A stretch of 64,000 nucleotides of DNA from the NCBI RefSeq assembly GCF_014191255.1, contig NZ_JACHWH010000002.1, forward strand, positions 868,001 to 932,000, given 5' to 3'. Position 1 is the stretch's first letter. Each line of letters opens with the position of its first letter. Position numbers and translations under genes: made by a program. The stretch comes from Amycolatopsis bartoniae. Its GTDB lineage: Bacteria; Actinomycetota; Actinomycetes; Mycobacteriales; Pseudonocardiaceae. Positions 4,588 to 25,180 of this stretch are shown in pieces. The notes under the pieces were generated by a model, which had not been told where the DNA came from, made no database searches, and saw only the letters and a list, made by a program, of their open reading frames with translations.

Positions 4588-4797
4588 ATGCCGACCTACG
4601 CCTACCGCTGCCGCGAGTGCACGGAGACCTTCGAGGTGAACCGCCCGATGAGCGAGTCCGCCGCGCCCGCGACCTGCCCGGAGGGGCACGCGGACACCGT
4701 CAAGCTGCTCACCACCGTGGCCCTCACCGGCTCGGCCGGCGCCCCGGCCCCCACGGGCGGCGGCTGCTGCGGCGGCGCCTGCGGCTGCGGAAACTGA
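4588..4797 (+). CDS. FmdB family zinc-ribbon regulatory protein
   Basis: A 69-residue protein starting MPTYAYRCRECTETFEV, the signature of FmdB/CxxC_CxxC_SSSS proteins. CxxC at residues 8-11 and a second CPEGH pair form the zinc ribbon. The C-terminus is Gly/Cys-rich (GGGCCGGACGCGN). The family is named after a putative regulator of formamidase genes; its role in actinobacteria is not established. Transcription converges on dhaM, and a structured repeat element occupies the space between. Confidence 0.8.
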   Translation: MPTYAYRCRECTETFEVNRPMSESAAPATCPEGHADTVKLLTTVALTGSAGAPAPTGGGCCGGACGCGN

Positions 4798-4810
4798 CAC
4801 TCCACAGTGG

Positions 4811-4965
4811 ACGGCGGCCAGCCGCTTCAGGTGGGGCCGTCAACCGGCACCGCCGCGGGTTCTGAGGGAGCTTCTCGCGAGGACAGCGCCGACGTGGTGA
4901 CCTGGAGGTCATGAGTCGGCGATCCCGGAGCGAGAAGCTTCCTCAGGTTCCGCTACCCGCACCGG
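4811..4965. repeat. structured inverted-repeat element, copy 1
   Basis: Arms CTGAGGGAGCTTCTCGC (4862-4878) and GCGAGAAGCTTCCTCAG (4930-4946) pair over 17 positions with a single G-U wobble. GCGGGT (4855-4860) with ACCCGC (4955-4960) extends the stem, and CGCC/GGCG continues it inward. A second copy at 23412-23614 has the same layout, conserved single-stranded words (GAGGACAGCGCC, GGTCATGAG, GGCGATCCC) and compensatory stem changes. It fills the gap between the convergent fmdB and dhaM genes. It may be a repeated 3'-UTR RNA structure or a small non-autonomous mobile element. Confidence 0.75.
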
Positions 4966-4988
4966 CCGTCAAGCCTTGAAAACCCTCT

Positions 4989-5669
4989 TTATTCCTCGCC
5001 GAAGTTGCTCTCGACGAGGTCCTGGACGGTGCGGAGGGCCTGAGCTGCCTGTGCGCCGCGGGCCCGGACCTCGATCCGGTCGCCCTTGCGGGCCCCGAGT
5101 GACATCAGCGCCAGCACGCTGTGCGCGTCGGCCTCCTGCTCGCCCAGTGCCACGCTGACGTCGGCCTCGATGCCCGCCAGGCTGCGCGCCAGCACCGCCG
5201 CCGGCCGGGCGTGCAGGCCGACCTCGTTGCGCAGCTCCAGCTCGACGCTCTGCGCGTCCGCCCCTGCCGTGTCCTGCGGCGCCTCCAGGTCCGGCGCCGC
5301 GGCGGCCGCCGCCGCGGACAGCACGTCCGCCCGGCTCGCCCCACCCTGCGCCGCGACCGCGGCGGCCACCGCGCCCTCGACGAACGGCGCGTCGGCCACC
5401 ACCGCCGCCTCCGGGTCGGCCAGCGACTCGACCGCCAGCTCGGCCGTCATCTGCGCGCTGCCCAGGTCGTACAGCAACACGACCCCGGCGCCGCCGTCCG
5501 CCCGCTGCACGGCCGCGACGACCCGGTCGTAGTCCGTGCCGATACCGCCGTCGGGGAGCCCGCCCGCGGCTTCGATCGTCACGTCGGGCGCCATCTGCGC
5601 GGCGACCTCCGCGAGCCCCTCGGCGAGCTTCGCGCTGTGGGACACCAACACCAGTCCGACGCGGTTCAC
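4989..5669 (-). CDS. dhaM: dihydroxyacetone kinase phosphotransfer subunit DhaM (EIIA-Man plus HPr domains)
   Basis: 226 residues from GTG 5669. Residues 1-125 are the EIIA-mannose-like domain (VGLVLVSHSAKLAEGL with the phospho-accepting His, LLYDLGSAQM). Residues 140-226 form an HPr domain with NEVGLHARPAAVLA (His-15-type site) and a Ser-containing regulatory stretch. DhaM relays phosphate from the PTS to ADP bound on DhaL. The fused HPr means that only enzyme I would be needed from outside; no EI gene is in the window. It overlaps the dhaL stop by four bases (GTGA), so translation is likely coupled. Confidence 0.93.
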   Translation of the reverse strand: MNRVGLVLVSHSAKLAEGLAEVAAQMAPDVTIEAAGGLPDGGIGTDYDRVVAAVQRADGGAGVVLLYDLGSAQMTAELAVESLADPEAAVVADAPFVEGAVAAAVAAQGGASRADVLSAAAAAAAPDLEAPQDTAGADAQSVELELRNEVGLHARPAAVLARSLAGIEADVSVALGEQEADAHSVLALMSLGARKGDRIEVRARGAQAAQALRTVQDLVESNFGEE

Positions 5670-22087: not shown

Positions 22088-22881
22088 CAGTCACACCTCG
22101 CGGTCATGCCGCCGTCGACGACGATCTCCGTGCCCGTGACGAACCGGGCCTCGTCCGAGGCCAGGTACAGCGCGGCATACGCGGTGTCCCGGCCGTCTCC
22201 CATGAACCCCAGCGGAATCCGGGCCTTGCGTTGCGCCAGCAGCGTTTCGACGTCCCCGCCGGCGCGCTGCCCCGCGAGCCGCGCCTCCACCAGCGGCGTG
22301 TGCAGCTGACCCGGCACCACGGTGTTCACGCGGATGCCGTCGGCGGCGTGCTGCACCGCGGTGACCTTGGAGAACTGGATGACGCCCGCCTTCGCCGCGG
22401 CGTAACCGACCTGCGGCGAACCGGTGAACCGCGTGCCCGAGGTGGACGCGGTGTTGACGATCGCGCCGCCACCGTTCGCCTTCATCACCGGGATGACGTG
22501 CTTGCAGGTCAGGTAGACGCTGGTCAGGTTGTAGTCCAGCTGCGCGTGCCAGTCCTGCTCGCTCAGCTCGACCGGGCCGCCGGGCCGTGACCCGCCCACG
22601 TTGTTGACGAGGACGTCCACCCGCCCGAAGGTGTCGACACACGCCGCGACCATTTGTCCTACAGCCGCATTGTCCGTGACGTCGCACGTATGAATGTCAA
22701 CAATCCCCTTTTCGATCAATCGGACAGTCTCCGCCAGCGCGTCCGGGTCGAGGTCCACCGCGAACACCTTCGCGCCCTCGCGCGCGAACAGCACGGCCGC
22801 CGCGCGCCCGTTGCCCCAGCCGGGGCCGACGCTGCCGGCGCCGGTGATCACGGCGACCTTGCCCTCGAGCCTGCCCGTCAC
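22087..22881 (-). CDS. short-chain dehydrogenase/reductase
   Basis: 264 residues from GTG 22881. NAD(P)-binding TGAGSVGPGWGNGRA is an extended glycine motif. NNVGG, the serine in NTASTSGTRFTG and the YAAAK pair give the catalytic S-Y-K set. The C-terminal ARFVTGTEIVVDGGMTA is typical of classical SDRs. It overlaps the upstream CMD-like gene by GTGA and the amidohydrolase by one base, forming a compact operon. A stretch of AT-rich codons encodes EKGIVDIHTCDVTDN where relatives usually have a longer Gly/Ala-rich loop. Confidence 0.9.
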   Translation of the reverse strand: MTGRLEGKVAVITGAGSVGPGWGNGRAAAVLFAREGAKVFAVDLDPDALAETVRLIEKGIVDIHTCDVTDNAAVGQMVAACVDTFGRVDVLVNNVGGSRPGGPVELSEQDWHAQLDYNLTSVYLTCKHVIPVMKANGGGAIVNTASTSGTRFTGSPQVGYAAAKAGVIQFSKVTAVQHAADGIRVNTVVPGQLHTPLVEARLAGQRAGGDVETLLAQRKARIPLGFMGDGRDTAYAALYLASDEARFVTGTEIVVDGGMTARCD

Positions 22882-23381
22882 CGCCCCACCTCCAGCGCGA
22901 CCAGGAACCGGGACACCATGTTGTACGCACCGACGGTCACCGTCAGCTCGACGACCTGCCGGTCGTCGAAGTGCTCGCCGAGCGCGCGGAACAGCTCCTC
23001 GCCGACCGCCACCTGACGGGTCATCGCATCGGTGTAGGCGAGCGCCGCCCGCTGCCGCGGGTCGAGCACCGCCGGGTCGCCGTCCGCGCGCAGGGCCGCG
23101 ATCTGCTCCGTGGTCAGGCCCTCGTCCTTCGCGACGGGCTCGTGCGCGGACCACTCGTACCCGGCGCCGTTCAGCTCCGCCACCCGCAGGATCGCCAGCT
23201 CCCGGACGTCCCCCGGCAGCGTCGAGCGCCCCCGGATCGCGCCGAGCAGGCTGTTCCAGCCGTCCGCGAAAGGCGGGCTGTGCAACAGCATCCCGTCGAG
23301 CGGGGTCAGCCTGCCGCCGCGTCGCGCGCGGATGCGCTCGGCGACCTCGCCGTCCCCGGTCACGTAGTCGAGCCTTGCCAC
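22878..23381 (-). CDS. carboxymuconolactone decarboxylase family protein
   Basis: 167 residues from GTG 23381; AAGGAG lies five bases upstream. It is an all-helical CMD/AhpD-like protein with STLPGDVRELAILRVAEL, YEWSAHEPVAKDEGL and ELTVTVGAYNMVSRFLVAL. The AhpD CxxC pair is absent, so a peroxidase-partner role is unlikely; the YEWxxH motif matches decarboxylase/isomerase-like members. It is the first gene of the operon with the SDR and the LigI-like amidohydrolase. The frame stays open into the repeat element upstream, but that extension is Arg/Pro-rich and lacks family character. Confidence 0.85.
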   Translation of the reverse strand: MARLDYVTGDGEVAERIRARRGGRLTPLDGMLLHSPPFADGWNSLLGAIRGRSTLPGDVRELAILRVAELNGAGYEWSAHEPVAKDEGLTTEQIAALRADGDPAVLDPRQRAALAYTDAMTRQVAVGEELFRALGEHFDDRQVVELTVTVGAYNMVSRFLVALEVGR

Positions 23382-23411
23382 TTTCTCTCCTTCGATCGGA
23401 ACACGTTTTGA

Positions 23412-23614
23412 AAGCGGCGGAGCCGCTTGCTTCTGCGCCGTCAGCTCGCACCGCCGCGGGTTCTGAGGTGGCCTCTCGCGAGGACAGCGCCTCCGTGGTG
23501 GGAGGCACAGTCGCGGAGCGTCCATGAGGGGTGGTGGTCGGGCTGGCGGGCGGGGGGTCATGAGGAGGCGATCCCACAGCGAGAGGCCGCCTCAGGTTCC
23601 GCTACCCGCACCGG
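23412..23614. repeat. structured inverted-repeat element, copy 2
   Basis: Arms CTGAGGTGGCCTCTCGC (23463-23479) and GCGAGAGGCCGCCTCAG (23579-23595) pair along 17 positions with one U-G wobble. GCGGGT (23456-23461) with ACCCGC (23604-23609) extends the stem. Relative to copy 1, two base pairs change on both sides (A-U to G-C and U-A to C-G). The terminal loop is longer here. The same unpaired words (GAGGACAGCGCC, GGTCATGAG, GGCGATCCC) are kept. It overlaps the last codons and stop of the dicarboxylate symporter. Confidence 0.75.
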
Positions 23615-24950
23615 CACCCAAGCCGGATCCAAAACTGTCTCTAGCCGCGGGCACGGTTTCCGGTGCGCCCGCGGGATCTTGACCGGACAGCACCTTCCGC
23701 GCCCGGTCGAGGTCGAACACGCCCTCCCAGCGGCTCACGACGATGCTGCCGAGCATCTGGCCGCACAGGCTGACGAGGCCGCGCATGGTGGACAGGAACC
23801 GGTCGATGCCCAGCACGAGCATGATCCCGGCGACGGGGACGGCGCCCGTCGTGGACAGCGTCGCCGCGAGGATCACGAACCCCGCGCCCGCGACGCCCGC
23901 GCTGCCCTTCGACGTGACCATGAAGACCGCGAGCAGCCCGATCTGCTGCCACAGCGACAGCTGCACGTCGAACGCCTGCGCGATGTAGAGCGACGCGAAG
24001 CCCAGGTACAGGCAGACGCCGTCGCCGTTGAAGGCGTACCCGGACGGGACGACGAGCCCGACGATCCGCTTCGGCGCGCCCAGGTGCTCCAGCTTGCGCA
24101 TCAGCTGCGGCATCACGGCCTCGTAGTTCGCGGTGCCCAGCGTGATCAGCAGCTCGTCCTTGAAGTACCGGTACAGCTTCAGGATCCGGATCCCGCACAG
24201 CCGCGCGACCACGCCGAACACCACGAGGCAGAACACGATGCCGGTGGCCCAGAACAACACGACGATCCCGCCGAGGCTGGCGAGCGTCGACGCCCCGAAC
24301 TTGCCCGTGGTGTACGCCATCGCGCCGAACGCGCCCAGCGGGGCCAGGTACATGACGAGCTTGACGATGCCGAACAGCGCGTCGCTCACGCGCTCGATCC
24401 CGCGCACCAGCGGGGCGCCGCGCTCGCCGAGCGCCTTGACCGCGATCGCGAACAGCACCGCGACGAGCAGCACCTGCAGCACGTTGCCGTCGGTGAACGC
24501 GCTGACCACGGTCTTCGGGATGACGTTGACCAGGAAGTCGTACCAGTGCTGCGACTCGCCGGTCTGCACGTACTGCTGCGCCGAGCCGGACAGCTTGAGC
24601 GAGCCCGGGTCGGCATGGATCCCGCTGCCGGGGCGGACCAGGTCCATCACGACCAACCCGAGGATCAGGGCGACCGTGGTGAGCACCTCGAAGTAGACGA
24701 GGGCTTTCACGCCGACGCGGCCGACGCTGGTCAGCTCCCCCGCCGAGGCGATGCCCGTGACGATCGTGCAGAACACCACCGGCGCGATGAGCATCTGGAT
24801 GAGGGAGATGAACCCGGTCCCGAGGGGCTGCAGCGACGCACCCGCGCCGGGTGCGACGAACCCGAGTACGGCGCCGAGGACGATCGCCACCAGGACGGTG
24901 ACGTACAGCTTCGTGGTGAAAGCGCTTCGCAGGACTCTTCCGGCCGACAT
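23592..24950 (-). CDS. dicarboxylate/amino acid:cation symporter (DAACS, DctA-like)
   Basis: 452 residues with about eight helices plus two re-entrant loops. Family marks are LIQMLIAPVVFCTIVTGIAS, GYAFNGDGVCLYLGFASLYIAQAF (the DctA 'NLDGT' region) and TSKGSAGVAGAGFVILAATL. ATG 24950 or the preceding ATG 24953 may start the protein; GGAG lies six bases before the former. Function: sodium- or proton-coupled uptake of C4-dicarboxylates such as succinate. The last residues (AGAGSGT and stop) are read from repeat copy 2. An imperfect dyad GTTCG...CGAAC upstream (24966-24999) may be an operator. Confidence 0.88.
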   Translation of the reverse strand: MSAGRVLRSAFTTKLYVTVLVAIVLGAVLGFVAPGAGASLQPLGTGFISLIQMLIAPVVFCTIVTGIASAGELTSVGRVGVKALVYFEVLTTVALILGLVVMDLVRPGSGIHADPGSLKLSGSAQQYVQTGESQHWYDFLVNVIPKTVVSAFTDGNVLQVLLVAVLFAIAVKALGERGAPLVRGIERVSDALFGIVKLVMYLAPLGAFGAMAYTTGKFGASTLASLGGIVVLFWATGIVFCLVVFGVVARLCGIRILKLYRYFKDELLITLGTANYEAVMPQLMRKLEHLGAPKRIVGLVVPSGYAFNGDGVCLYLGFASLYIAQAFDVQLSLWQQIGLLAVFMVTSKGSAGVAGAGFVILAATLSTTGAVPVAGIMLVLGIDRFLSTMRGLVSLCGQMLGSIVVSRWEGVFDLDRARKVLSGQDPAGAPETVPAARDSFGSGLGAGAGSGT

Positions 24951-24965
24951 CATCGTCTCCGTTGT

Positions 24966-24999
24966 GTTCGACTGACGCACATTTGCTCGTCTGACGAAC
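24966..24999 (-). promoter_or_regulatory. imperfect dyad upstream of the dicarboxylate symporter
   Basis: On the plus strand the segment begins GTTCGACTGACG and ends CGTCTGACGAAC, around an AT-rich centre (CACATTTGCT). The outer five bases pair perfectly and the inner bases partially. It sits just ahead of the symporter start and may bind a regulator. No regulator gene is adjacent. Confidence 0.35.
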
Positions 25000-25180
25000 A
25001 ACATGATGGGCTGTTCGAGTGGTTCCCGTCAAGAAGCACGCCACTGTGGACGTCCGATGTGAAAGCAGCTCGACTTTGGGCATCCCAGAGAAACGGTCGT
25101 TCCACTGGCGCGAGCGCGGTGGCGGCCGGCAGCGAAACCGGCCGCCTCGAAGACGCGGCGGCTGAGGGGAGGGACAACCG

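Follow-up and report, generated by a model that had tools for sequence, protein, structure and literature searches.

A ~190-bp mobile element of Amycolatopsis and Saccharopolyspora, found at gene 3' ends, carries a covarying hairpin that may act as RNA

Several families of small bacterial repeats resemble the element described here. The BOX and RUP repeats of Streptococcus pneumoniae are, like it, small, interspersed and strongly folded; mobilisation by an insertion sequence (IS) has been proposed on the strength of ends in common with it, a gene's stop codon is supplied by BOX in 36 copies, and over-representation between convergent genes is reported (PMC3049150). However, host, ends and sequence all differ, and the main text of that paper does not contain the word "compensatory". 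ERIC (RU-1), Correia (NEMIS) and YPAL (RU-2) are also repeats of 100–200 bp, and long stem loops are said to form in their transcripts. They differ from our element according to the sections that describe them: ERIC and Correia, as well as RUP, end in TA, while YPAL, of ~168 bp, lacks a terminal inverted repeat and has target repeats of 3–26 bp (PMC2229807). QMITE1 and QMITE2 of Coxiella burnetii are MITEs that give rise to small RNAs, and QMITE2 lies mainly in 3' untranslated regions; QMITE1 has no orthologues in other genomes by BLASTn, the target repeats of QMITEs vary in sequence, and the parts of the article that characterise them present no covariation evidence (PMC5896051). Judged by these partial descriptions, none of BOX/RUP, ERIC, Correia, YPAL and the QMITEs is the same as the element. 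IS5 itself is reported, in the portion of the source that deals with its target, to duplicate a 4-bp C(A/T)A(G/A) sequence (PMC11677980).

The window, a stretch of 64,000 nucleotides from Amycolatopsis bartoniae, contains two hairpins that are two of ~35 copies of a ~190-bp mobile element, seemingly not described so far, of the bacterial family to which Amycolatopsis and Saccharopolyspora belong. An earlier note, made from the letters of the window, had described them as a two-copy inverted repeat with compensatory changes and had read them as a folded RNA with a function or as a mobile element that depends on its hairpin. Its description of the stem is exact when read base by base: the arms are TCTGAGGGAGCTTCTCGC / GCGAGAAGCTTCCTCAGG in copy 1 and TCTGAGGTGGCCTCTCGC / GCGAGAGGCCGCCTCAGG in copy 2, the copies differ on both sides of the stem (A-U/G-C and U-A/C-G), the wobble is G-U in one and U-G in the other, and the unpaired words are common to both. 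Each arm pair is the first-listed inverted repeat of its own 801-base region. The count of two was wrong, since a covariance model built from 25 uninterrupted own-genome copies (alignment A1) has 36 matches in the 7.76-Mb genome, the last three below 75 bits, and blast finds 45 pieces.

Both copies are also longer than had been thought. Copy 1, previously delimited at 4811–4965, occupies about 4798–4988 on the plus strand; its ends are estimated because no CTAG survives there, and its 191 nt agree with the 190–196 nt between the CTAG repeats of eight uninserted copies. It occupies the whole space from the TGA of the gene on the left to the TTA of dhaM (TAA on the minus strand). Alignment places a 5' local hairpin region at 4812–4827 on the plus strand, with the consensus AAGCGGC-GGA-GCCGCTT, degenerate in this copy, and a long hairpin of 99 nt follows at 4855–4953 on the same strand, with covarying stems and the conserved internal loops GAGGACAG / GATCCCGGAG. 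The earlier placement of this copy downstream of a minus-strand gene is right insofar as it adjoins the 3' end of the dhaM-like gene (EIIA-man and HPr domains; 4989–5669, minus strand), but the copy actually lies between convergent genes, as a plus-strand Zn_ribbon_8 gene (4588–4797) reads towards it from the other side.

Copy 2, formerly given as 23412–23614, extends over about 23395–23640 on the plus strand, its ends likewise estimated, the left one in particular; a CTAG target repeat (23641–23644) follows the right end, and its left counterpart is not recognisable. Its 5' local hairpin, AAGCGGC GGA GCCGCTT, lies at 23412–23428 and its long hairpin at 23456–23602, both on the plus strand, and a module inserted at ~23500–23550 gives the loop ~50 nt extra. 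The earlier note put this copy downstream of the dicarboxylate symporter; it overlaps the end of that ORF (23592–25004, minus strand) and is upstream of the next minus-strand gene, of the carboxymuconolactone decarboxylase family, which starts beside it (22878–23381). About 16 codons of the symporter ORF lie inside the copy (window 23592–23642), ending in ...ARDSFGSGLGAGAGSGT with the stop within the element, and in the relative G006 the insertion point has a sequence suggestive of a TAG stop. The inserted module is a recurrent one: some copies have a G-rich stretch of ~50 nt (..GCGTCC..TGAGGG..GGTGGTGG..GGGCTGGCGGG..) inserted in either the loop of the hairpin or the right arm, namely at window ~23500–23550 and in L024, L028, L030, L031 and L032. 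When the copies were folded, copy 1 gave an energy z of -6.2, with 0 of 200 shuffles as good, and copy 2, folded whole, gave -1.5 with 17 of 200 as good and is not clearly better than shuffles. It is the exception among six copies folded, the other five being very stable structures.

The distribution of the element is confined to one family in our samples. Among 40 relatives, the model matches 17 of 18 genomes of the same genus, G003 being the sole Amycolatopsis without a match, and one genome of another genus. Family-wide, 68 of 249 genomes (own included) match, in 14 of 46 genera. In the sample of the order (397 genomes) 33 match, all inside the own family, and in that of the phylum (396 genomes) the own genome alone matches, so neither yields a match outside the family; weak or few copies may be missed in these large samples because stricter filters were used and few candidates were scored per genome. 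A DNA pattern for the core finds at least 96 loci, in records named Amycolatopsis, Saccharopolyspora and Pseudonocardia, and a search of plasmids, phages and viral contigs found no copies. Neither window copy has a gathering match in Rfam, the best sub-threshold match around copy 1 scoring 18.1 bits against 63.6, and among the papers listed by a literature search covering open-licence articles none was seen to describe an element of this kind from these genera, which is weak evidence of novelty.

A long hairpin makes up the interior of the element; its stems covary, and its unpaired words are near-invariant. Among the 25 own copies, 97.7% of cells are paired and both sides change at 17 of 46 pairs; none of 500 shuffles reaches any of five measures, and the values of slid controls are much lower. 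Sixty copies from seven other genera (21 genomes), drawn from the best matches listed and kept outside model building, served as a held-out set; they are 92.5% paired, with both-sided changes at 35 of the 46 pairs (0 of 500 shuffles) and a covariation score of 0.431 as compared with 0.127 for shuffled and at most 0.081 for slid controls, although this alignment was fitted to the model and leans towards it. Covariation beyond such controls is what we took as the mark of a structured non-coding RNA. Further copies with covarying stems, on whose existence the earlier reading had been staked, were thus returned from other genera by the covariance-model search. Helix 1, the 5' local hairpin, covaries in both the own and the held-out set, and helix 2 of the model is paired in 62% of held-out cells. 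The words GAGGACAG and GATCCC are near-invariant, as is a G-U/U-U/U-G triple at the foot of the hairpin, and the purine-rich internal loops hardly vary. Comparison of copies at matching loci (seven pairs) gives 20 changes that kept and 24 that broke pairing, partly through misalignment. Flank tables inspected by eye have no clear U-run after the hairpin. Three copies (L033, L034 and L035) have no long hairpin, and the loss in L035 lies exactly between two flanking GGTTC words, both of which are retained.

If the palindrome acted only as double-stranded DNA, or equally through both strands, G-U and A-C would be expected to be equally common. On the aligned strand, G-U to A-C cells in the hairpin instead stand at 110:3, 218:11 and 453:35, including three almost fixed wobbles and with 11 A2 rows excluded as presumed antisense matches. 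At variable pairs of the held-out set the ratio is 91:31, and 15 of the 31 A-C cells fall on one isolated pair. Changes were also mapped by Fitch parsimony over 89 distinct hairpins, only those of exactly 99 nt, a rough procedure at this length and one that gene conversion may affect. Internal branches carry 30 compensatory double changes, together with 13 changes from Watson-Crick to G-U and 0 to A-C, and terminal branches carry 33, 21 and 8, respectively. At paired sites C>T equals G>A (38 each), and mutation therefore looks unbiased. Changes that broke and kept Watson-Crick pairs number 23:54 on terminal versus 6:44 on internal branches (p = 0.03).

Because G-U exceeds A-C, it is the plus-strand fold that appears to be selected, and we regard selection on it in the lineages that spread as very likely. 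Inserted copies seem to lose constraint, because broken pairs are commoner on terminal branches; in our reading, copies decay once inserted and spreading lineages keep the plus-strand fold. That this fold acts as RNA rather than as single-stranded DNA we consider likely. The folded-RNA half of the earlier reading is thereby supported, at the level of sequence, by covarying stems in other genera together with the excess of G-U over A-C.

The other half of that reading, a mobile element, is supported by relatives that lack the element, by CTAG on both sides of some copies and a single CTAG at two empty sites, and by a terminus shared with an IS5-family insertion sequence. The earlier note had suggested looking for empty sites in relatives; those read at the two window loci lack the element (seven genomes for copy 2 and five for copy 1). 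At the locus of copy 2, nine other Amycolatopsis genomes have both flanking genes, with a gap of 4 to 64 nt as compared to ~250 or more in the window, and all seven relatives read base by base are without the element. The dhaM side of copy 1 is present in all 18 others; none of five relatives read has a model match, two having short gaps and three longer unrelated sequence. At a further locus, L014, the flanks were matched in 12 of 12 genomes searched, and the 11 that were read are all without the element. The filled L014 site has CTAG on both sides, and the six empty sites read letter by letter have a single CTAG (two), TTAG (three) or CTAA (one); the single CTAG at the two sites is the overlap of the TAG stops of two convergent genes. 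The twelfth genome, G005 (A. thermalba, L376:171-295), holds a different, loop-inserted copy on the strand opposite to L014, which we read as an independent insertion at one target.

Among 128 copies (six of 134 were left out for want of flank), CTAG adjoins the left end of 22, the right end of 33 and both ends of 12, and 85 have it on neither side; in control windows 30–60 nt further out it was counted in 9 of 384 on the left and 2 of 384 on the right. The element lengths of the 12 copies with two-sided CTAG are 190–196 nt in eight, 89 nt in a hairpin-less one and 210–245 nt in three. An exact-offset search for target repeats gave nothing convincing, perhaps because end lengths vary. The element is thus short (190–250 nt), multicopy and too small for a transposase gene, with target-site duplication and empty sites, and we have little doubt that it is a MITE.

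The ends of the element are best seen in Saccharopolyspora. One form in this genus, of ~240–250 nt, has TAGAGNCTGTTT or close variants at its start and end, that is, terminal inverted repeats with at most two substitutions; a second form has the Amycolatopsis length. In Amycolatopsis copies the inverted repeat is looser, and the 5' end matches only loosely. The terminus pattern TAGAGNCTGTTTNNGA occurs 32 times, in four of seven genomes, with 0 occurrences of the reversed control, and it is absent from the own genome. In S. shandongensis the 16-nt terminus of the element is also that of an IS5-family insertion sequence. A piece starting with the 16 bases encodes the start of an IS4/5 transposase (Pfam DUF4096, sub-threshold at 26.4 versus 34.3 bits), and a piece ending with them encodes an IS5-family transposase C-terminus, with DDE_Tnp_1_2 (36.3 bits) and DDE_Tnp_1 (23.7 bits) both above cut-off and a partial match to NCBIfam transpos_IS5_3 of 48.5 bits, under the cut-off of 110. 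Both pieces run into contig ends and no complete IS was found in that assembly; we infer that they belong to one IS. Shared ends were found in S. shandongensis only, and none of the IS5-family genes examined in the own genome carries the terminus. An early idea of a TA target of the IS630/Tc1 type was dropped on the CTAG repeats and the IS5-family transposase.

The element is thus like IS5-family insertion sequences in the terminus it has in common with the S. shandongensis IS and in CTAG, which fits the 4-bp C(A/T)A(G/A) target given for IS5 in the relevant portion of PMC11677980. It is unlike them in that it has no transposase and that its interior is a conserved structured domain, the sole noticed likeness of which to the IS is a 9-mer at the foot of the hairpin. 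Upstream of where its transposase starts, this IS (L276:253-580) contains a palindrome of its own, GCGGGTTCTTG..CAAGAACCCGC, and the 9-mer shared by this palindrome and the hairpin foot is GCGGGTTCT. Further elements in S. elongata and S. shandongensis (L256, L257, L261 and L263:2746-3000) start with TAGAGGCTGTTT; three of the four have both ends recognised, at ~250 bp, and they contain different tandem hairpins, GTGAACGG..CCGTTCAC. They may represent sister MITE families that depend on the same transposase. Several Saccharopolyspora copies also seem to be centred in another palindromic repeat, GTGAGTGTTTTGG..CTATAG..CCAAAACACTCAC (L256-L261, flanks of TAGAG ends), which is a further intergenic repeat family. 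L038, inspected as a possible autonomous copy, is a truncated element only.

The position of copies at gene 3' ends is explained by the frequent overlap of CTAG with a TAG stop codon. Of 39 own copies, truncated ones included, 38 could be placed (L029 is without a neighbour on each side), and 0 of these lie between divergent, 15 between convergent and 23 between tandem genes. The corresponding numbers for 90 copies from named records are 5, 20 and 65, 10 of 100 at locus edges being left out, and divergent gaps make up 88 of the 411 gaps and 31% of intergenic bases in those loci. Where genes face a copy, the stop codon is mostly 10–15 nt from the modelled core, which is the element's end; on the 5' side in Saccharopolyspora, stops are more distant and more variable. 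TAG accounts for 62 of 124 adjoining stops versus 121 of 661 elsewhere (p ~1e-12), and TGA for 49 of the 124, with genes called by our own simple codon-usage script rather than a standard annotator. The element is found in both orientations relative to flanking genes, with no consistent bias, and read-through alone therefore does not account for selection on the plus strand.

Three other accounts of the hairpin were weighed against these results. Long near-perfect palindromes are subject to quasipalindrome correction, that is, template switching during replication, which homogenises their arms, and the element could be an ordinary MITE whose functionless palindrome is kept alike in this way; the hairpin is indeed a long near-perfect palindrome in a mobile element, and it has been lost from L033, L034 and L035, as palindromes often are. 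Such correction should be strand-symmetric and remove wobbles, yet one strand has more G-U than A-C, the G-U/U-U/U-G triple is close to fixation and the unmatched internal loops are almost invariant, and we consider this account improbable. We are equally sceptical of a bidirectional terminator or 3'-end protector that is useful to the host and kept between convergent genes. CTAG targeting accounts for the location beside gene 3' ends that would otherwise favour it, and, although all folded copies except copy 2 are very stable, no clear U-run was seen by eye in the flank tables, selection favours one strand despite the unbiased orientation, terminal branches have the larger share of broken pairs (p = 0.03), and relatives have the same loci without the element.

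Strand-specific folding is also known from other mobile systems, such as the ends of IS200/IS605 and integron attC sites, and DNA too tolerates G-T better than A-C. The plus strand might accordingly fold as single-stranded DNA in transposition or replication and not as RNA, but the CTAG repeats and the terminus common to an IS5-family DDE transposase point to double-stranded transposition, and we regard this as very improbable. REP/RAYT and IS200/IS605 elements have a Y1 transposase and no inverted-repeat ends, and the inverted-repeat ends and CTAG repeats seen here argue against membership of either group.

The explanation that we favour, and hold to be reasonably probable on the sequence comparisons, is an IS5-type MITE carrying a structured RNA domain. 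The element inserts at CTAG-like tetranucleotides, with CTAG on both sides of some copies, and an IS5-family transposase would move it in trans. Outside stop codons, CTAG is presumably rare in such GC-rich genomes, and insertion at stops would be nearly harmless; the adjoining stops, located at the element's ends, are enriched in TAG. The pairs of the hairpin covary, with one strand tolerating G-U and mostly not A-C, and this plus strand would be a folded RNA, probably bound by protein, that aids propagation of the element, while copies already inserted would lose constraint. To name any particular role for the putative RNA would be speculative, and we think it doubtful that a given one is right. 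We also think it unlikely, though worth stating, that the element is a mobile non-coding RNA in the full sense, an IS5-type MITE that needs a folded plus-strand RNA, with its own promoter and a protein partner, in order to spread. If that were true, the life cycle of a DDE-transposon derivative would include an RNA stage or an RNA cofactor, and this derivative would have dispersed an RNA gene to stop codons across a bacterial family.

What is new in comparison with the nearest published kinds is the combination of CTAG-based targeting of stop codons with covariation that is strand-specific and extends across many genera. MITEs of bacteria are frequently regarded as palindromic debris. The family described here, present in 14 or more genera of a single actinomycete family, appears to be under strand-specific, covarying, RNA-like selection where its lineages spread, and it follows a simple landing rule, CTAG at a stop codon. 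It opens to test the idea that a structured RNA is the vehicle or the cause of propagation for some MITEs, and it would account for one class of the intergenic hairpins that lie between convergent genes of these genomes.
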